Below, one piece after another: positions 16,232 to 61,329 of a stretch of 64,000 nt of DNA. Below the pieces are notes generated by a model. It had not been told where the DNA came from. It did no database searches and saw only the letters and a program-made list of their open reading frames with translations. Origin of the DNA: Bryum argenteum (Eukaryota; Streptophyta; Bryopsida; Bryales; Bryaceae); NCBI GenBank assembly GCA_037043015.1, contig CM073324.1, positions 17,636,597 through 17,700,596 on the forward strand, read 5' to 3'. Each line of letters opens with the position of its first letter. Position 1 is the first letter of the stretch. The translations under genes were made by a program, and so were the position numbers.

Positions 16232-19200
16232 TTATAGAAGGTCTTGGAGAGGGCGCATTCCGGCCTTATGTACCAACTCGCGGTGTTTGTACGCCGGTAG
16301 AGCCTTAGAGAGCATATCCGCGATGTTCTTTGTGGATTCAATTTTGGTGATAGTGACCTGACTTGTGACCACAAGATCTTGCATATACCCGAATAAAGTT
16401 GGGTTGATGTGCTTCACTCAATAAGTTTTCATGAAGGCGGTGGAGACTTGGGCTACAGCTGCGGCATTGTCTTCAAAGATCACAGTTGGGGCTGCGGAAT
16501 CCTGAAACCTGCGTTCTTACCATTCTTCTTAGTCATACCGCTTCCCGTGCAGCTTCGTGGAGGGCAGGAAGTTCTGCGTGGTTGGTGGACGTGGCTGTCA
16601 CCGTTTGCTTGATTGACTTCTACGAAATTGGCGCCCTGTTCGTCATGAAGATGTAGCCGGTTTGAGATTTGCCAACAGTCTCATCCGTCCGGAACCCGGA
16701 GTCGGCGTATCCTGCTATCTTTGCATGTGCAGATTTGGTGAAGTACAAACCCAAGTCTTCTGTGCCATGAAGATACCTTAGCAAATGTTTGATGGCAGCC
16801 CAATGTCGTTGAATAGGGTTCCTGCTGTGACGTGCCAAAAGGCTGGTTGCAAATGAGATGTCTGAGCGAGTGTGGGTGGCGAGGTATAGGAGCGCGCCGA
16901 CCGTTGCGAGGTACTTGGGTTTATCTACCTCTTCCTCCTCATCCTCGCACGGGGAGTATGGGTCCTCGCCAGTCTTGCTGCGCCCAATCATTGGTGTTGA
17001 GATCAGATTTGCATCGGCCATGCCTAAGTTCTAAAGAAGCTTGCAGGTGTAGGATTCTTAGTGGAGCAGGATGCTACCATTGGAGAAGTGTTGTATCTGC
17101 AGGCCTAAGCAATATGTGGTCTTGCCTAACAACTTGATCTCAAACAAGCTTTTGAGCAAGTTCTCAACATGATTGCATTCAGTTGTTGTCCCTATAATGT
17201 TGATATCATCAACGTAAACAACAAGAATTGCATAACCGGGGGGTTTGCATAGCACAAAAATGCATGGAAGTGCTGGGTCACAGGAAAAACCTTTCTCAGT
17301 GAGGAATCGGCGAAGGTGGTGATACCACGATATGTCGGCTTGCTTTAGGCCGTATAGGGCCTTGCGGAGATGGATTCCGACAAAGTGACCGGGAGCTGCA
17401 ACTGGGACCGCAGGAAGGGAATCCGGAGGTGGTTTGGTGAAGATAGTCTCATCGAGCTCGCCATAGAGATATGCTGTAACAACATCCAGGAGTTGCATAG
17501 CAAGGGAGAGCTGAATTGCAAGAGCAAGTAGGTACCTGAAGGATGAGCAATCCATCACTGGGGAGTAGGTTTAATGATAATCAATCCCGAGGTGCTGATT
17601 GAATCCTTGTGCCACGCAGCGGACCTTGTATCGAATTGAACGATCTCGCCGTGCTCATTCCTCTTGCGGGTGAAAACCAGCTTGTATCTAATGGGACGGG
17701 TTGATAAGTTGGTGTGCAGTTGGCCGAACACACCACGCTTGCGGAGAGAGTCATACTCTGCTGTTAGTGCACGTTGCCAGTCGGGCCAATCTGGTCTCGG
17801 CTTGGCTTGGTCAAGGGTGGTGGGTTCAGGGTCTAGGTTGAGAAGATTGGTGGCGAAGGTTGAAACGTCGGAGATGGGGCATTCGGGTTCCATGTACTGA
17901 GATTCGGAGGTGGCCGGTTCCTTGGATGGTTGGAGAGACTTGGTTGGTTGTGGGAAGGGTTGGATTTTCGGATCCTGGGATTGGGTTGCGAAGGATACGA
18001 GAGCTAGTTTTGAAGCTATCCGGGAGCTGTTGGGCTAAGGTTTGAAGGTGGAGAAGTTTCTTAACTTCAGTTTCGGCAATTGCCGTGCGTGGATGGGGGT
18101 TCATGGAGAGAGACTCGACGGCACGGAAGGTGAGAGGAGCAAAACTGGAGGAAAATTGAAGTTTTAGAAAGACAGTCTCTATAAATCTGCAATTTTCAAA
18201 ACGGGCCTTGTGTAGGGTGCCATTACGGGGGTCTATGTACTTGATGATGTAGGGAGAATCGAAGCCTACATATAATCCTTCTAGGCAATGGGCACTTATG
18301 GTGCGGATTCGAGGTTCAGGTGCCGGTATCAAGACTTGACATCCAAAGACACGGAGATGACGGATATTGGGTACACAACCAGATACTAGTTCGAGAGATG
18401 TTTGGGTATTGAGCAGAGTTGGTCTGAATCGGAGAAGGGTAGCAGCATGAAGAACGACATGACTGCACATAGAGGCAGGGAGGTTAGCATGGATCAGGAG
18501 GGGGCGGGTAATCAACTGGATTTTTTTAATGTATGCCTCAGCTAATCCGTTCTGGGAATGCTCGTAAGGAGCTAAATACGTGAGATCAATCCCTGAGGCA
18601 GTACAATAGTCTTCAAATGCATGGGATCTAAACTCCTGGGCATTATCCATTCTAAATGTCTTGATGGGCTTATCCAGGAAGTGGTTGCGGAATCTAATGA
18701 GCATCGCGAGGAGTCTTGGGAATGCCATGTTCCGGGTGCTAAGGAGAGATAGTTCTGCATGGCTTCCAGAGGCATCAACTAGAACAAGAAAATAGGCAAA
18801 CTGACTTGAGACGGGGTTAATGGGTCCGCAGATGTCACCTTGTAATTGTTCCAGTGGTTGAGGCTGGGCCGTAGGTAGCGTCCACCTTGATGGGTGATTC
18901 GAGTACTTGCCTTGTATACATGCGGTGCAGTCATCGACCTTGGCTGCATCACTTGGGCTAAGAGTGTGGCCGGTGAGGACCGGTATGATGCTGCGCAGAA
19001 GGGTCGTAGCCGGGCACGACGCGGGTGCCCTAGTCGACGATGCCATATCTGGGCCTTGGATAGTGCCGTTGTATGATAGGAGCGCAGCTCTGTAGTTGGA
19101 GAGATTCGTATCTCATACAGTCCGGAACGTCCAGCAGAAATCTTCGTGATGGTTTTAGTGCCCACTTGTAGTACCATATGTTCATCATCATCTTCCAAAC

Positions 19201-20629
19201 TTGTGGAAATGTGGATCCCATTGGAGCGCACATCCCGGTAGCTGATCAGGCTACGGGGGGCGTCCGGCACATACATCGCCTTACTACACACGAGGGGGAA
19301 TCCCTCGGGCAATACTATCCTTGTCCGGCCCTCCCGCAACTTGAAGTTCCGGCTTCCGGCGATAGTGAATATTTTACATTCTTGCCAGGGTCCGCACAAA
19401 TAAGATGAATAAAAAAATTTGGGTTTTCTAAGTATTGTATGAGTGAACCCGCTATCTAAGAGTGCCTTGTCTAATGGCACTGAATGTCCAGGGGAAAGGA
19501 CCATGAAATTTTCTAGATCTACTTCATTGAATGAGGGTGCATCGAGGGAGTGCACTTCCTTCTTCCCCTCTTTCAGCTTTTGAAGCTTCTGGAAAATTTT
19601 GACCCAATAGCGTGGGGTTCGGCACTCGCGCGCGTAGTGCCCTATACGACCAGAGTTGTGACAAGCCTCTGAAGACGACTCAGAACGGGAAGATTGACTG
19701 GAATGACCTGATGGTCGATCGTGACGATCATAAGGCTCACGACGGTCCTGGTAATACCGTCGGTAATCGCGGCGATCGTCACGGTGGTCAGTCCGTCGGT
19801 CGTCATGGTAGTCAGAGCACTGGCTGTCGCGATGGTAGTAGTCGCGATTGCTTGAGTAGCGGTTGTCCCGGCCTCGGCCACGTCCTCTGCCGCCGCGTGA
19901 GGGTCGTCGTGCAGCCTCGGTATTGTTGGCTTCTACGACTTTTGTTGCTGGCGTGGTGGAAGAAACTAGAGCAGCTGCTGGAGGAGTTGGAGTAGAGGAG
20001 GTTGTGGTGACGGGTTCGGTCGTATGGATCTCCCGCGCCCGCCGAGATTCTGCATTCTTCACAAGCAAGAGCTGCTGCTTCTCTGCCATCAACAAGTTGG
20101 ACATGAGCTCAGAGTGAGTAGTAAATCGCATGTTGCGAAACTGCCGGGCAAGAATAGTTGTTGCAGGTGGAAAAGTAGATAAGGTTTTGTCGATGAGGTC
20201 AGCGTCGGTGATGCGTTCGCCACACAGTCGGAGTTGAGCAGATAAACGGTGGAGGTCGGATTTGAAGTCATAGATGGAAGGGAAGTCCATAACACAAAGG
20301 TTCACCTATTTGCTCCGAGCTTGAGGAAGCAGCAAGTCTTGGTGATGTTCAAAGCGTGCTTGGATTTAAGACCACAGGCTCGCTGCATCCGAAATTTGCA
20401 GGTACTGTTGGCGTAGTGAGGTCTCCGTGTGACGGCCTAAGATCATTAACGCTTGTTGGGGCTTAGAGTTTGGCATCCCCTCTGCCGTGGCTTAGTACAA
20501 GCCACCATCAAGTTCTTCCGCGCTGAGGTAGGTGTGAACGTCGCTTGACCACTCCAGAAAATTGTCGTTGTCTACTGCGAGAGCATCAAAAAGCAGAGCT
20601 TGGATACGAGACTCACGTGCGGTAGTCAT
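16232..20629 (-). pseudogene. Copia gag-pol polyprotein with stops and frameshifts
   Basis: Gag starts at the ATG at 20629 (MTTARESRIQ) and is interrupted by TAA at 20494-20492, TAA at 20368-20366 and TAG at 20308-20306. The zinc knuckle CHNSGRIGHYAREC has Ser in place of the second Cys. Protease shows LLDSG. The pre-integrase motif is IWHRRLGHPRRA. The integrase catalytic residues are in GDICGPI, RMDNAQEF and QNGLAEA. Reverse transcriptase has ALYGLKQA and YVDD. RNase H ends with STKNIADMLSKALP near 16300. Frame changes occur near 19040, 17890, 17560, 17050 and 16620. The product cannot be made as one chain, so mobility would need a helper. Confidence 0.93.
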
Positions 20630-52131: not shown

Positions 52132-53561
52132 TATGCACCCTCAGGCATCTGCCGAATATCAAACTTACAGAGATCTTATAACACATGAGATCTCAAATAG
52201 TGCTTAATTGCATTTGGAAACGAATATATAACTGACGAAGTGCAACATTTATGTGTGAGAAAAATGACAACCATGCCATTGTTTGAGGGGAGTAGATAGA
52301 GTAGATGTGAAAAAGAACAAATCGACTGGTGCGTATGGTGGAAGCTAATATGTCATTACAATGTAGGAGTCTTGGACAGTTAGAAGCTCGGTAGTCAAAG
52401 TCAAAGGCATCTTTGGCATCTGTGGCAACAAAGCATCGATCTTCTTCTCCTTTCATCTCGGGCGCTTGTGTGGGGATGGATCAATGGAAGCATAATCTGG
52501 CTAGCGCTTTTGAGGCTCGGTTGCGCTAGGCGCTCTGCCCACCACCATCCCTCCAATCCCGACTCCTGCAACTTGCACTTCCTTGTTTCTTATTGGCTCC
52601 TTCACCACCGCTAATGTAGTCTCAACCTTCTCGCCACGAACAACTACTAGATGCTTGTTGTCATCCCACTGAAGCAATGTCGCCACATCTTCGTGTAGCA
52701 TATTAAAACTCAAATACTGCGGGCGACTCTTGGAAGTGCCATCTTTCGCACTGCCATCTTTCGTACCGAGCTTCGCACTACCATATTTGGTACCAAACTT
52801 CACATGCTTTATCTTGTAATGTTCGTCAAGAAAGCCTTGCTCATGGTTGTTTCTCTACAACCCCCCAAAAGTATCATGCCCTTCAACAAGTTACCATTCA
52901 ATCGAATTGATTGAGGTTGATTATGGAGCGATTATGTGATGATAAAAAATGAAAAGCATATAGAAGTAAACATAATATCTCCCATTGCTTAAACATGATA
53001 ATGTTCTCTCTTCTTTGGAACCAACGCCTCCTTCTTAAACATTGTAGAAACAAAATCAACACGTAATTCGTTATAATGGCATTATTCGACTATAAGAAAA
53101 CCCTGTTTTTTGTGATGTCTTGTGTAATGTCTAATGTATTTTGTGATGTCTTACTGTCTTAAAAGATGTCTTCGAAGACGGGAGGATGTCTCTACGTCTA
53201 ACGGGCACATTTTGGATTGGAGGGGTATGAAGACATCACCAAACAAAAAGATGTTGGTGAAGACATGGATATCTTTGAAGACATCTCGATAGACATCAAA
53301 CTCCCACGTTGGCAAGGGATTTTGGACTAGCAAGGTAAAAACGACCAAAATTTACCGGTAGACAGGGTAAAAAGCATTTCTAATGTTAAAAGAGTAGGTG
53401 AATGGGCAGCGGTTTTCAAAAGTAGGAAAAAAGCATCACACTTTTGTTTTTTCTTTTTTTTTCTTTCTTTAATGCTAAATCATTATGTGACGTGGCAATA
53501 CTGAAAATACTAATTTCAGGCTATTCTCAATATTTTTTCATTGGTCTAAATTTTTTTGTTA
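52132..53561. other. Intergenic region with GATGTC-rich stretch
   Basis: A short minus-strand frame at 52501-52803 has TK-GSAK repeats but no recognised family. From 53110 to 53310 GATGTC or GACATC occurs repeatedly. Confidence 0.4.
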
Positions 53562-54285
53562 TTAACCCTTAAGCGGGCCGAATGTTGATTTTCGACATTC
53601 TGGATGACACCACGGATGTTTGAACGCTCCCCGCCTTCTCGTCGTCGCGATTTTTCATCCATCGATTTTTGCCCTTTGTGGGTAAGTGGGGAATGTTTAT
53701 TGTAGGCTTTACTGCCCTTCCAAATTTTATTTTCACAATTTACAATGGCGATTTTAGTGGCAGAATTCTTGGTTTTTTCAGGAGTTTCCTTCGTTTTGGT
53801 GTGAAGTTTTGCCATTTGGGCATTGAAATGGGGCAGTTGGGCATGGGGGCTAATTTGCAAAAGAAATATTAGTGGAAAGAGGGATTTGGGAAGATAAGTC
53901 ATAATTTGGAAAGAAGTGGGAGGATTAGTGCATAAATGCAACTGTCATGGCGGTTGAGCCACCAATTTCAGCCCCCATCACCAATTTGAAGGGCCCAGCC
54001 TTAGAGTATTGAACACCATGAACTTATTCAAATTCAAACTTCTTGCCAACATAATTTCTCCGTGCCAATCCTATCCAGCATCAATACTCTAATGGAAATT
54101 TGCATCATATGGTAGCATCCATCAATTCACATTCAAAATTCAAACCACCACAATCACACCTAAGATATCACATCAATCAATGCCATAATTTTTTAGTTTC
54201 AATTTGAATGTACATGAGTTTTCAAACAAACTCCTCCTCAGTTGTGTCCAACACACGTTCCTCCTATTTCTATCTAACACATATA

Positions 54286-54705
54286 ATGGAGAGTTCAAAA
54301 GAGAGGTTGCTTCATGATGCAAGGGAGGAGTTAGTAAGATGGGCTACAATTGACAAGGGTTTGGGGGAGCAACAAGTGGGTTTTTAGTTAGAGCTTTTGG
54401 ATAGAGATGTGTTACTCAATTTGCCATGTTCAAACAAGGTTGACAAACGTAATACCTCTGAGGGAATTCGTCACCTGTTCTATCACCATGTTAGCAATAT
54501 TTTAGGATGGAAGGAGAGGGTTTGTGAGGGAGATCCATTAGGAATTAGTTCTCTATTATATTCTTTGATTCGTCAAATCTGGCCTACTGAACACCATGCT
54601 AACAACGAGGAGCACAACACACCAAGTATCAAGGGAGATGGGGGAAGAGGAGACAATCAGCAACTTCCAGGTATGCTTACATGTCACCAAATCTTAGTAG
54701 CATAG
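54286..54705 (+). pseudogene. Accessory frame in the piggyBac element, one internal stop
   Basis: ATG at 54286 (MESSKERLLHDAREELVRWA) opens a frame of 139 codons apart from a single TAG at 54385-54387. After the stop it continues LELLDRDVLLNLPCSNKV and, further on, NILGWKERVCEGDPLGIS. I recognise no family. It may be a second protein of the element or the original N-terminal exon of the transposase. The continuous frame on both sides suggests a recent nonsense mutation. Confidence 0.4.
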
Positions 54706-55643
54706 AATTTCCATAGAAATTGGGTTTCAACGAGCTGGGAGGATGGTATCGAGGGTCAACAACGAAGAAGGGCAGGCGTCTGCGAGCTGCTCCCATCGGA
54801 CAGCAAAGGAAGAGATCTCGCCCAACGGCCGCGAAGTCCACCGACAGCTCCTCCATCGGACCAGAGCGGCCGCGAAGTCCAGACCAGCTGCGGTCAGCAT
54901 GCAAGGAGCCAACAAGCTGTTCCATCGGAGGGAACCCCGGCCGACAGCGAAGGGGACAGCGGCCAGCGGAGCGTGGATCCACCGACAACAATGAACACTG
55001 CAGCGACTTCGGAGGAGGAGAGCGAACAGCCCGGGAGGAGCGACCGAGCGAAGCGACCCAGCCGAGCGGAGCGACCCCGGCCGGCAGCAGCTTGGAGGGG
55101 AGCCAGCGGCCGGGGATGGGAGGGTCATCGGCGGCGAGCGAACGGAGCCACCTGCGGAGCCGTTGGGGACTTCGGCCGACAGCAGCTTCGCCGAGGATTT
55201 CGGCAGCGCTCCCCGACCGCGCGACCTCCGTCTCCACCGACGGCGCGGACAGCGCACCCCAACCTGTTCGACCTCCACCGACGGCGCAATTTTACAGCGA
55301 CGGCCCGGATAGCGCTCCCCAACCTCGGTGAGGATCTCCACCGACGGCCCAGTAACCCAGCGACGTGGGAGTAACCCGCCTGCAGCAACAGGAGGGGGAG
55401 GATCAGTTCGGGGGGGTCCTAGACGCTGTGCAACAGCGTTCAAAGATCCAGCGTGCACCAATCTCATGGACCTGCAACGAAGCCATCATGTCATGAATCT
55501 GCCACAAGAGATTATCGAGCCTCTAGAAGTTAGAGTATTGCAAAGGCAACGCATAGATCCAGAAAGTGAGATTGGAGACGAAGAAGAGGAAGGATTGATT
55601 CGATGGGTTAGGGAAACAAACTACTAGCGATTTTGTGTGTCCA

Positions 55644-58235
55644 ATGTCAGCAAGATTGATATATGTGGTGCAAATGAACAATGAAACTAAGCAAGTGCCA
55701 TTTGGTGAGATTGCTCCCATCTTTGCTCATACCATACTGCAGGAAACACAGGAAGAAGAATGCTTGGGGGAACCTGAAGAACCAGGGCTTGATTCTGAAA
55801 GCGATTTAGAAGATTCAGACAGTGGAGAAGAACTGGAATTCTTACTCCTAAATGATGACCTTGGCGGGGCGGGGAGTCCTGCTCGACGGGCGACCTGTGC
55901 TCCATCGCAGGGAATTTCGGAGACCAACGGTCATAGGGCACCTACCCCGGCCAGGCCAGCCCGGTCATCGGACCAGCCAGCGGCGCGGAGGGCAGAGACC
56001 CCGGCCAGGCCGGCCCGGTCATCGGACCAGCCAACCAGCGCGGGGCGGCGACCGGCCAGCCGGCGGTCATCCGACCACGGCCAATGGCGCTGGAGGGCTA
56101 CGACCCCGGCCAGGCCAACCCGGTCATCCGGCCAGCCACCGAGGCAGTGTTGGGCTACGACCCCGGCCAGCCAGGCAGCGTGCAACGACTCCGGCGAGCC
56201 AGCCAGGTCGACGATTTATTTGGATGGTGGAGCGGTGTTGGGCACTCCAGCGGGCCAGCAACTGGCGAGCTCCAGAGGGTTCGGCCCTCCATGCACCTCG
56301 ACGGGGTTGGGGGGGGGTCAGCCTCCAGCTTCCAGCTCGACGGATGCTATTGGAGTGGAAGGTATGGGGAGAGGGACCCGCCAGCCCGAGCCCATTGTGG
56401 GCCACAATCAAGTCTCCCATGCGAGAAAGCCCATTGTCGGGCATAGCCCCGTATCACATTCGAGTTTTGATCATACAAGGGTAAGTGGGCCACATGGAAG
56501 GGGCAGAGGAAGGGGTGTAGGAAGGGGACTAACTAATTGGGATGTTGGTCTAAGTTTCAAGGAATGCTTTGAAGACAAATATTGGGGGAAATTTCGATCA
56601 ACTTACACTCATGATAAAGTTGTTTTCACCGGACCTAGTGAGGGTCCTCCACGTGTTTTTAGGAAAATCTCTCCCGTGTTAGACTTGTTCCACAAATTCT
56701 TCACTAGGAAGACTTTGAGGAAAATAATGAGAGAATCTAACCGGTATGCCGCTTCTATTGACCCGACCACGGGAATGACTAGGGGGCCAAAAGATTGGTG
56801 GAGTTTGACCGTGCCGGAGTTGGAGGCATGGTTGGGCATTAGTATACTAATGGGGTTAAAAATTTTACCTAACCGTAGATGCTATTGGAAAAGTAGCGAG
56901 AAATTTTTCTATTGTCATACTATTGCTAACACTATGAGCATGAAGAGGTATGAGGCTATAACGAAGTGTTTACATATTCATGATGATTCCATGGCCCTCA
57001 TGGATAGAAATGACCCTAACTTTGAGAAATTAGTGAAGTTGAGGTGGCTAATTGAGGAGGTGAGGCACCAATGTGTGTCAAACTGGAATCTTGGTCAATA
57101 CGTAACCGTTGATGAGCTAATGGTGAGATACAAGGGAATCTACGGCCATGGCATGAAGCAATACATGCCTAACAAGCCGGTAAAATTTGGATTCAAGATT
57201 TGGGCGGCCGCAGATTCGAAATCCAAGTACCCTTACAACTTCCATGTCTACACAGGGGCGGATTTGAAGAAAAATCTTCGAACGGCGAAACCGGGGGAGG
57301 CAAAAACGGGGTACGAAGTGGTGATGGGATTGATGGACGGATTGCATGGGCGGGGCCACGTTGTCGTCACCGACAACTTCTTCGCTTCACCGAAACTCTT
57401 CGTCGATTTGCACTCCTTGGGCACATACGCCACGGGCACCGTGCGTTCCAACCGGATTGGTTTGCCGAGCGACTTGGTGGACAAGCGGAGATGGGTGAAG
57501 CAACCCCAAGGGAGCTCCGATTGGCACATGCATTGCACCGGTGCGTTATGTTTTCTTGTTTGGGTAGATAAAAAACCGGTGCTTTTATTGTCAACCCATG
57601 CGGAGCCGTTGTCACCGGATCCGGAGGTGCCTCTCACGGTGCCCCGTTATACTCGTGGGAGGACGGAGCACATACCCACCTCTCCTATCCACTTGGAGTA
57701 CACCCGCATGATGCGGGGTGTGGATGTGAGTGACCAACTCCGGGGAGTCTACACGGCCTTATCCAAGACCCACAAATGGTGGCATAGGATATTCATGTTT
57801 TTGGTAGATTTATCAATTACGAATGCATGGATCATTCACAAGCGGGAGAGTTTGGATTTGGGGCTTGGTGCTATGAACCATTTAGACTTTGTCACGGCAT
57901 TGGCATTCTCTCTCATGGAGAATTGGCGGCGGGACCGGATGGGCGTGGTCTCTCTATGCACTTATACCCCGAGCACTCATGGGCTTGAGAAGGTTCCCCG
58001 AGCTAGACACCAATGTGCCACGTGCAAAGACAAAAAAACTTACAAATTATGTTTGCAAGGATTGTGGTGGTGCATGGTATCACATGGGGGATTGTTTCAA
58101 GAAGTCACACTTTGTACTCCGAAGGTAGTGGGTTATTCATCTAAATGTAAGATCCCATTTCTTCCATCTTCTTTTGTTTATATTTGGCTTGTCTTATCTT
58201 TAATCTTTTTAGCTATGATTTTAGAATATCAATGA
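55644..58235 (+). CDS. piggyBac-type DDE transposase with a late frameshift
   Basis: Cut-and-paste transposase (DDE_Tnp_1_7 family). From the ATG at 55644 the frame has 863 codons. Residues 1-75 are acidic (DSESDLEDSDSGEELEF). Residues about 95-200 are Pro/Ala/Arg-rich with repeated TPARPARSSDQP. The catalytic core starts near residue 305 (GLSFKECFEDKYWGKF). Catalytic Asp residues are Asp490 in VDELMVRYKG, Asp577 in VVTDNFFAS and Asp694 in GVDVSDQ, with the usual second Asp at 697. The C-terminal Cys-rich domain begins QCATCKDKK, but at a seven-A run (58032-58038) its remainder (YVCKDCGGAWYHMGDCFKK, ending at TAG 58126-58128) is in another frame. So the domain that normally binds transposon ends is lost unless slippage occurs. 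The core itself has no stop, so recent activity is plausible. Family members are usually near 600 aa; the excess is the low-complexity N-terminal part. Confidence 0.9.
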   Translation: MSARLIYVVQMNNETKQVPFGEIAPIFAHTILQETQEEECLGEPEEPGLDSESDLEDSDSGEELEFLLLNDDLGGAGSPARRATCAPSQGISETNGHRAPTPARPARSSDQPAARRAETPARPARSSDQPTSAGRRPASRRSSDHGQWRWRATTPARPTRSSGQPPRQCWATTPASQAACNDSGEPARSTIYLDGGAVLGTPAGQQLASSRGFGPPCTSTGLGGGQPPASSSTDAIGVEGMGRGTRQPEPIVGHNQVSHARKPIVGHSPVSHSSFDHTRVSGPHGRGRGRGVGRGLTNWDVGLSFKECFEDKYWGKFRSTYTHDKVVFTGPSEGPPRVFRKISPVLDLFHKFFTRKTLRKIMRESNRYAASIDPTTGMTRGPKDWWSLTVPELEAWLGISILMGLKILPNRRCYWKSSEKFFYCHTIANTMSMKRYEAITKCLHIHDDSMALMDRNDPNFEKLVKLRWLIEEVRHQCVSNWNLGQYVTVDELMVRYKGIYGHGMKQYMPNKPVKFGFKIWAAADSKSKYPYNFHVYTGADLKKNLRTAKPGEAKTGYEVVMGLMDGLHGRGHVVVTDNFFASPKLFVDLHSLGTYATGTVRSNRIGLPSDLVDKRRWVKQPQGSSDWHMHCTGALCFLVWVDKKPVLLLSTHAEPLSPDPEVPLTVPRYTRGRTEHIPTSPIHLEYTRMMRGVDVSDQLRGVYTALSKTHKWWHRIFMFLVDLSITNAWIIHKRESLDLGLGAMNHLDFVTALAFSLMENWRRDRMGVVSLCTYTPSTHGLEKVPRARHQCATCKDKKTYKLCLQGLWWCMVSHGGLFQEVTLCTPKVVGYSSKCKIPFLPSSFVYIWLVLSLIFLAMILEYQ
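55942..56182 (+). repeat. GC-rich repeats inside the transposase gene
   Basis: Irregularly spaced copies of CCCCGGCCAGGCC...CCCGGTCATC start near 55945, 56002, 56105 and 56160 and encode TPARPARSSDQP-like repeats. Composition is far GC-richer than the flanking element. Confidence 0.8.
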
Positions 58236-59280
58236 ACTATACCAATGTGTTTTTTTATCGATTGAAATACTCCGGGGACTCCTGCTTTGCAAGTCCGGGG
58301 ACTCCCATGCGAGAGAGCACCGGGGATTCCAGCGTGGCGAGGCATGGGGGGATTTAGTAGCGACATTTGTTTTGCCAAGATGATGGCGGGGCATCGGTCG
58401 GCGGCAAGGTGGGGGGGGGTGATCACAAGCTCAGCCCATTCCACGACAGGCGGACGACCAAAGAATGGGGCTTGTGGCGGTGCCCCCGACCCCTTCCACA
58501 ACGGCGGGCTTCCTCGCCACCGCCCGACCGAGCGGAGCGCCCCATCACGGAGCATCGACGGCTCATAACGCTCCCCTCTTGTGTAATCCAAATGGGGGGG
58601 ACGGGTGTGGCGGGGGCATCGGATCGGCCCTTTTGGGGTTTGGTCCAAACCGTTTCTAAACCTGATGACCCTATTAGATGGTGGCGGACACCTTTATCCG
58701 GAAGGACAAATTTTATAGTCTCTTTTAGCTATCCTCCCATTATTTTTGTGTTTTGTGTGTTCTTCTTTTCAATCTATCTTTATAAAAGGTCGCCCCTCTT
58801 ACACCAACTCTTGTCCACGGAGGACAAAAGTGTGGGTGGGCAGCCTTGAAACACTATTGAGAAATAGCTCTTTCCTCAACCCACATGCGTTTCAAATAGT
58901 ACTATGTGCAAATGGAAGCTCACAATTATGTTTTTTTTTTTTTGGAATAGCTCCTTTGCTTCATGCCGGATATTATTGTACTTGACCAAATTTGATTTTG
59001 AGGGAATTCTTGATACGACTTTTCACTCCAAAGTCTAAACTTGGTGACTGCCCCACTATTTTCAACCCCCCATTTTTGCCTTCAATCATGTGGATGAAGT
59101 ACCCCCCCAACTCCAAATGGCATGAAACTTGGCATTTCAACTATTTACAAAAGGGAGAAGAAGATCCTACGGTTAGAATTTAAGTTTACTGCCTCTCTTT
59201 TCTTTTAACGACCTTGACATTTTTTCACAAATTGGACCCCTCTCCAACTGCCCCGATGGATTGAAACGTTTAGGGGTTAA

Positions 59281-59910
59281 AATATATAATTATATTTCAA
59301 TAAAAAATATATTTTGTAAATTTTTATTATATTCAAATAAATTAGAATATAATAATTATGTAATTTTTTTATGATTTAAAAATATTTAAATATTTAAAAA
59401 AAATATATATAAAATATAATATCTAAAAGATAACAATGGTGCCGAAAAATAGAATTTCAAAGTAAAAGTAATTTCGTGTATATTTAATCCTCAAAAAACA
59501 CGTGTGCATAGATTAAAAAAGTTATTTACAGCACTTTATCTACATGGCAACAAAAACTCCACGTCGGACCAGTTGACAAGTCATACAACATCTAGTCAGA
59601 TGTCTAACACGATGTCCAACTTACCATAACTACAGTCAGGCATGAATGTCCGCGTAGACATCTACTCGGATGTTTATGAAGATGTTTTGCACGACATCCT
59701 CCTAAACGTCATTTACTAAAAAGCGGCAGTACTTAAGGGTCTCTTAAGAATAATATCAACTTTTTCTCTTACTGCTTGTCCTCCATTGGCGCCGGTCTCT
59801 GATTAGGCTCTGTCTCTAATAACCCTCAATCCTCGTATACTTAAAGAAAATATAAAAAGAAAATAAAAACAATAAACAATATTTTTTGGCTTACTTCAAG
59901 AAGGAATAAA
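59281..59910. other. Intergenic region with GATGTC-rich stretch
   Basis: AT-rich DNA. GATGTC or GACATC and close variants cluster at 59580-59710. Confidence 0.4.
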
Positions 59911-60880
59911 CCCCTAAACGTCCCTAGTGTCGAAAAACGACATTTTGGATGAAGGGTAGAAACTTTGAAGCCATAACTTCATCATCCAAACATCGTTTTT
60001 GACAAAATCACTTGGGTTAGGTCACAAATCAAGTTTAGTTTATGTGGTAGAAATTTCAGACTCATAAAATAAAGTATGAATAAATGGCATGAATTTTAGT
60101 GAAGGCAGCTTTTGTTTTTGGGTTTTCAAACATTTGGCATGTTTTACCATTGCATGCCAATTATGTGAAATCTAAAATAGTTTTTTCATGATTTTTTTTC
60201 ATAGGTTTGATATTTAGATGCATCCCAACAACTTTGTAGTTGGAAGTTTTTTGATCTAAATAACTTTGGTATTGGCTTTGCAATGATGTTTCTACAATGA
60301 AAAAAGTGAAAAAATGGATGATTTTTGAAGAGCTAGATCTCCTTTATCCACCGTTAGATTTTGACTTTATTTTCTGGGATGGATTCCAATTATAGTCTAT
60401 TTTAAGTGGTAGAAATCTTGACCCAATCGAGGATATATTGAAGAAAAGGCATGAATTTGAGTGCGAGGGGTCTAGTTTTGGACTATTTTTCCTTTGTAAA
60501 ATTTTTGGCAGTTTTCACGACTACAAGGCTACTATTTGAGCCAAGATTTTTTTTTGATGAATTTTTTTGGTACAAGAGTGTCTTTGAGATAAAGATGAAC
60601 AACTTTCTAGTTGCTGATTTTTTTATTACAAATTTCATGTTGGTAGTACTTTCACTTCAAAGTGGAAATGATGATATTTTGTATCCTGTTTTGCGCACTA
60701 ATATGTTATGATCTCGCAATCTATGAGGTCCCATGAGTCAAGTTTTGGTCCACATGATCTACTACAAGTCTATTACAAGTTTGTACGGTTGAGATCTGAA
60801 TAGCTTATCTTTATTTTCATCTATATCACTTTTTTTGAAAACGAGTTTTTGGCTAAAAATACCCCAAGGACGTTTAGGGG
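59911..60880. mobile_element. Non-autonomous piggyBac-type element B
   Basis: A 970-bp element ending CCCCTAAACGTCC on both sides (inverted). The right flank is TTAA (60881-60884); the left is TAAA, presumably a mutated TTAA. Next to the left end is the hairpin TGTCGAAAAACGACA. The interior matches element A in reverse complement over most of its length. No coding capacity. Confidence 0.8.
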
Positions 60881-61329
60881 TTAAATATTATTGATTAATT
60901 AATGATTACTTATAGTCTAATGGCAAGATTATACATTACTCTATCATCAACAACCAATATTATACAAAATTAAGCAAATTTACAAGAAATATGAATTTAT
61001 GAAAGTAGCTTCTTAATACAGTTTAGGAGACAATTCTAGAATAGAATTAGTATTAGGAAAGTTAGTTGGAAAGTTAGTTAGGGTAGAAATAAAAGGTAGT
61101 TAAGTGTTTGAAAGATTGCCTATCACCATGGAAGACTATAAATAGTCTCATGATTGTAATCCCACATTTTTTCTATCGATAAAGATTATTTGATTTGTTG
61201 TGGAAGAAACTCTAAGACTTACAATACATGCTTTGTTGTGGAAAGAACTTTAAAGCATGTGGTATTTGATTTGTTGTGAGGGAAAACAAAAAACCTTTTA
61301 TAGTTAATATGTTGTGGTTGAAACCCTGA

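Follow-up and report, generated by a model that had tools for sequence, protein, structure and literature searches.

Transposons of the piggyBac superfamily, for which a TTAA target and CCC ends are established, are known mainly from animals and, to our knowledge, have hardly been described from plants. An element of this kind in a moss contig raises a simple question: does it belong there, and if so, is it alone? We address it in a stretch of 64,000 nucleotides (hereafter the window, G000:C4:17636597-17700596), part of a 28.7-Mb contig (C4) in an assembly of 258,844,377 bases (258.8 Mb) and 25 contigs. The answer that we develop below is that the element is very probably one member of a large population of cut-and-paste piggyBac transposons resident in the moss genome.

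The limits of the element are as follows:

53562..53565, no strand, left TTAA target-site duplication (from the letters and from empty sites)
53566..59276, plus strand, piggyBac-type transposon of 5,711 bp (from paralogues with equal ends and other flanks)
59277..59280, no strand, right TTAA target-site duplication (from the letters and from empty sites)

TTAA flanks, CCC-type ends and a size of 5.7 kb had been claimed in the initial annotation, and the letters bear out the exact coordinates. The termini, CCCTTAAGCGG on the left and CCCCTAAACGT on the right (inverted), begin with CCY and are alike over only about 12 bases; together, the TTAA duplication and the CCY terminal inverted repeats are traits of the piggyBac superfamily. 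Two paralogues match the full query, at C4:22338410-22344154 (96%) and C2:23249333-23254994 (93%), both with termini identical to those of the window element at each end and with different flanks. When the left-end 18-mer was searched with at most one mismatch it was found 428 times in the genome (225+203), against 0+0 for the reversed control, which excludes chance.

The window element is an insertion at TTAA, as can be read from its empty sites. Joining its flanks with one TTAA kept gives a query of 406 bases, for which the best 40 of 299 candidate places all matched across the junction at 88-94% identity, 39 of them spanning all 406 bases and one starting at base 3 (25 additional rows are short pieces inside those 40 places). 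Each of the four places that were read at the empty site has a single TTAA. The C2 paralogue (93%) is lodged in a 267-bp TTAA element, and among the best 40 places for its own joined flanks 39 are empty and one is the occupied locus; the TTAA is kept in the four that were read, with a left arm of only ~17-30 bases because the 267-bp host element ends there. Empty sites of this sort are compatible with sites that were never filled and with sites that were cleanly excised alike.

Inside the element, the transposase and its catalytic residues are placed thus:

55599..58232, plus strand, ORF of the transposase, 878 aa between stops (ORF list, Pfam)
56505..58037, plus strand, conserved transposase core (Pfam, PDB sequence match, model)
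57111..57113, plus strand, catalytic Asp equivalent to T. ni D268 (alignment to T. ni piggyBac)
57372..57374, plus strand, catalytic Asp equivalent to T. ni D346 (same alignment)
57723..57725, plus strand, catalytic Asp equivalent to T. ni D447 (same alignment)
57732..57734, plus strand, Asp equivalent to T. ni D450 (same alignment)

The family PF13843 (DDE_Tnp_1_7) matches this ORF (E=2.2e-73) along positions 4-349 of its 349-position profile, through residues 361-743 of the 842-aa stretch submitted and with no stop in between. A sequence search of the PDB with the core returned T. ni piggyBac (E=4.6e-26) and piggyBat (E=2.1e-21), the other five rows having an E of at least 0.36. The core was modelled with a mean pLDDT of 79.5; the predicted structure has an RNase H-like fold in the piggyBac arrangement, and in a fold search its top match was 6x67 (E=3.3e-24), followed by two piggyBat chains (8.2e-21) and then by Tn5 (1.6e-5). 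The likeness to T. ni piggyBac (6x67/6x68) consequently comprises the four Asp equivalents, the top fold match, the TTAA target and the CCC ends, at an identity of 22% in the fold alignment; with piggyBat (PDB 9c0f), whose host we take to be Myotis, the core and the fold are held in common. A viral link was considered as well and rejected: in the fold search giant-virus transposases (best E 1.5e-11) fell behind piggyBac, a first scan of viral contigs gave 0 pattern matches, and a second gave 48, none of them related by tblastn.

An uninterrupted DDE core with all its catalytic Asp residues had been reported for this element, and that description stands for the catalytic core, which is stop-free and has the D268, D346, D447 and D450 equivalents, and falls beyond it. 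To call the copy intact was wrong, as the upstream ORF is cut by a stop and a frameshift precedes the C-terminus:

54286..54702, plus strand, upstream ORF with a ~110-aa domain and an in-frame stop at 54385-54387 (recurrence in relatives)
58035..58128, plus strand, C-terminal Cys/His-rich part, out of the core frame in the window copy (alignment to relatives)

The stop at 54385-54387 is found in the window copy only, by comparison with nine distinct close copies (14 matches, ten of which passed the coverage filter, L042 and L048 overlapping); in these, the upstream ORF has stops or frame changes of its own in four cases and is undamaged in five. Ahead of the Cys/His-rich part, a homopolymer has a length in the window unlike that of all ten aligned relatives (12 matches, less two removed by the coverage filter), and past it the core frame continues into unrelated residues; the difference may be an assembly error. 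The Cys-rich C-terminus is in frame in the relatives P0001-P0003 and in L002, a copy from another lineage in which core and tail share one frame. A related frame of 1,290 aa, which itself stops short of the Cys-rich tail, is spread over three frames when aligned to the window, so the window frame also shifts near 55.6 kb. One frame runs over nearly the whole core in two of nine close relatives (L043 and L044 among L039-L047), the other seven having broken cores whose best frames are partial, and none of the copies examined reads as an intact gene from one end to the other. The window element does not have the full open transposase of an autonomous, intact copy and is probably unable to make the complete protein. 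Its termini look complete, so it may be mobilisable in trans.

How large, and how lively, is the population to which it belongs? A search of the whole assembly for the family gave 775 first-look candidates, and the best 116, which were scored, all exceed 240 bits and lie on contigs C1 to C11. The match is stop-free in 93 of these 116, a share that is biased upwards because they are the best of 775, and in which frameshifts are uncounted. In another subfamily, three copies of 5.7 kb, one each on C4, C8 and C9, share 99.79-99.84% identity and have different flanks, so that some transposition was recent. Two of them have TTAA at either end; the copy on C8 (L065, G000:C8:13521700-13527700) is bordered at either end by TTAT, as though the target had been non-canonical. 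The frame of these three copies, 831 aa long, lacks the Cys-rich tail present in the relative P0044, and they may for this reason be non-autonomous. It could be argued from such damage that the population is extinct, with only remnants left and no further movement: the window copy is broken, as is the upstream ORF in four of nine distinct close copies; a near-whole core in one frame survives in only two of nine close relatives; the full-length paralogues have diverged by 4-7% from the window copy; and even the recent copies on C4, C8 and C9 are without an in-frame Cys-rich tail. The 99.8% identity of three 5.7-kb copies on three chromosomes argues the other way, as do the 93 stop-free cores among the best 116, and we consider extinction unlikely, though a serious alternative to a resident, mobile population.

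The relationships of these copies bear on how long they have been resident. Our tree has 68 rows, namely 14 from the moss, 52 of 67 environmental proteins and two PDB sequences; the 15 environmental proteins left out are shorter than 340 aa, and they include P0003, 71% identical over half of the query. One branch (100/99) sets 58 rows, the 14 from the moss and 44 environmental ones, apart from ten, which are T. ni piggyBac, piggyBat and eight environmental proteins, both named enzymes lying across it from the moss copies. Placement inside an animal clade, raised initially as the outcome that would betray a contaminant, is therefore not what the tree gives, in a test made weak by an animal sample of two named proteins; a long-branch warning covers T. 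ni piggyBac, piggyBat and the moss row L008. Within the clade of 58, the nearest environmental proteins are 43-71% identical and the moss rows occupy four to five places. Four to five lineages in the moss genome are deep, with 36-42% identity to the window core, and they interleave with environmental rows. Recent horizontal gain, single or repeated, from some other organism could be proposed in place of an old plant lineage, given that the environmental relatives are mostly metagenome proteins. It has to accommodate the coexistence and interleaving of four to five deep lineages, which require either long residence or many gains, and it seems to us an improbable account, if one that deserves to be kept in mind.

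Selection on the core suggests a further reading. Between the window core and L054, L055 and L056, dN/dS is 0.10-0.11 (150-159 silent and 84-95 replacement changes); it is 0.25-0.27 for the near copies L043 and L044, and 0.62, on 13 changes, for the close pair L055 and L056. The low values in the divergent comparisons indicate that the core is under purifying selection, of the sort that a domesticated, piggyBac-derived host gene would also experience; the close pair speaks against it. Yet a host gene does not sit well with TTAA ends, with dispersed copies that have equal ends or with the damage in the window copy, and for that copy the ends and the empty sites refute it, making domestication very unlikely here; a single-copy domesticated piggyBac gene may exist elsewhere in the moss genome.

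That the host is a moss can be read from its LEAFY gene. The LEAFY domain SAM_LFY has five matches in the assembly, and against the PDB the LEAFY exon next to the best of them scores 242.9 bits with 4bhk (Floricaula/Leafy homolog 1), 172.4 with the next row and 167.3 with 2vy1. We take 4bhk to be the protein of the moss Physcomitrium and 2vy1 that of Arabidopsis, and two binding positions, with Asp and Cys, are presumably of the moss type; a plant host gene with moss affinity is accordingly found in the same assembly. In the window, six of the eight ORF pieces scanned against Pfam gave a row and two gave none; the rows comprise a 2-hydroxyacid dehydrogenase, a fragment of a kinase, the reverse transcriptase of a Copia element and, in two parts of which one falls short of the cut-off, an OSCA/CSC-like channel, besides a gag piece that likewise falls short of it. 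The Copia-type retrotransposon pieces lie at window 16623-20305 on the minus strand, with RVT_2 at 17061-17570, and searches of the window for Rfam families and tRNAs found nothing. A moss-like LEAFY together with piggyBac cores on 11 contigs implies that the element is not a contaminant, and the original view of a coding piggyBac belonging to a plant genome has held up on a 28.7-Mb contig; the plant lineage suggested with it is a candidate beyond this moss. Animal or protist DNA joined to a plant contig might come to mind because piggyBac is best known from animals, and it is hardly credible in the face of best-scored cores spread over 11 contigs, of an insertion within a repeat dispersed through this moss genome, whose many empty copies refute it, and of a tree that separates the moss copies from two named animal proteins.

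What distinguishes the moss elements from T. ni piggyBac, beyond their place in the tree, is the extra domain of ~110 aa upstream, with a signature of roughly LLD..HLR.LPVRKKSRAWP....NFRHHFYRQAAHILGW. No Pfam family matches it above threshold (a single sub-threshold row, E=0.032, was seen in a relative), and a profile search of the PDB gave nothing meaningful (best E 0.91). Its predicted model, of low confidence (mean pLDDT 49.5), consists of helices only. The domain is also found upstream of transposases from other lineages, and has 385 candidates in the genome, the best 150 of which were scored and listed. When these 150 were set against the best 116 of the 775 cores, 31 domain rows (30 cores) lay at most 7 kb upstream of a core on the same strand; the controls gave one (same strand, downstream) and 0 and 0 (opposite strand). 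As the cores compared are the best-scored ones, the remaining domain rows are uninformative. At two places domain and core report an equal open-frame length, 1,290 and 1,331 aa, and in the C8 copy they read as one continuous frame of 1,290 aa. An intron between the domain and the DDE ORF was considered: in three relatives a conserved GT and AG flank the variable gap there, but the splice as read breaks the frame. The environmental piggyBac proteins differ in this respect from the moss elements, as the domain scores convincingly in none of the 67 (best E 0.62), so domain and core are perhaps separate ORFs or exons; 14 proteins from public assemblies match the domain profile, including its four members. 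We believe that the domain probably belongs to the transposase system, and our guess is that it binds DNA or protein. For the T. ni transposase, one paper describes a DDD core together with a Cys-rich domain at the C-terminus, and a disordered N-terminus of ~100 aa without which transposition is impaired (PMC9499001). The window contains GC-rich repetitive stretches between the upstream domain and the core, at 54750-55450 and 55880-56400, with 54- and 60-base repeats; their conservation is low, yet they are open in one 1,290-aa relative.

Close to the transposon lies a much shorter element:

59907..60884, plus strand, neighbouring short TTAA element of 970 bp with its flanking 4-mers (from its sequence and its copies in the genome)

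It has CCCCTAAACGTCC at each end, TAAA as its left flanking 4-mer, and a longest listed ORF of 89 aa. Its 17-base end occurs 1,405 times in the genome (control 0), and many of the 100 places listed pair at about 960 bases from each other. The search for copies gave 7,414 candidates, the best 40 of which have main rows of at least 95% identity, besides nine partial rows at 70-86%. Its own empty sites can also be found, all 40 of the best places among 298 candidates continuing across the empty junction; the two that were read have one a TTAA and the other a CTAA. A second abundant family of TTAA elements, ~267 bp long, with ends CCCCTAACTCTCC and 1,875 candidates, is represented by L058 (G000:C2:12969195-12969417); two members of the 5.7-kb family, L040 and L049, are inserted at the same TTAA of the ~267-bp element and have unlike outer flanks.

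If the moss enzymes work as known piggyBac transposases do, they would recognise ends resembling CCC(T/C)TAAACG, excise the element at TTAA and insert it at another TTAA. By analogy, excision would be seamless, the transposase would act as a dimer, and short elements with like ends could be mobilised by the same enzymes. A bolder proposal would be that a separate, diverse and still active piggyBac branch lives in mosses, that its transposases use an upstream helical domain not described before, fused or beside them, and that it also moves thousands of short TTAA elements; taken jointly these parts make a tentative claim, to which we give slightly less than even chances. piggyBac is a main tool of genome engineering, and a recently mobile branch resident in plants, if real, would allow plant control of a TTAA transposon to be studied and would give the insect enzyme a native counterpart for comparison. 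Were the upstream domain part of the transposase, it would be a new component of a well-studied machine.

The superfamily label is not foreign to land plants. In the portions of the papers available to us, PiggyBac is annotated in Ceratopteris as 1,230 pieces totalling 122,417 bp (PMC6890710) and in Stipa as one piece of 75 bp (PMC8319324), in both cases as counts of short pieces with no coding copy described there. Likewise in available portions, a 2015 survey lists PiggyBac among the superfamilies present in every group studied, land plants included (PMC4438587), and a plant review uses piggyBac as the name of a class and of a tool (PMC10794571). The word is absent from the main text of a fern genome paper (PMC9477723) and from one moss paper (PMC13120521), and another moss paper has 'piggybacking' only (PMC10619864). 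Titles and the openings of abstracts, a coverage outside which most subscription papers fall, yielded no coding piggyBac in a moss. As far as the literature could be checked, then, the kind of element is known, and what is new is the host, the scale and the extra upstream domain.

Two features of distribution may be added. One dispersed repeat hosts both the short element and the window element, and occupies window 53362-53561, 59281-59906 and 60885-61081; it has 298 and 299 candidates and is frequent on C1, where 19 of 40 and 17 of 40 of the best-scored places lie. C1, the largest contig (44.1 Mb), is poor in piggyBac, with five of the best 116 cores where 19.8 are expected from its length (binomial P=2.9e-5) and seven of the best 150 upstream domains against an expected 25.6 (P=4.0e-6); one possible reason for this scarcity is that C1 is a sex chromosome.
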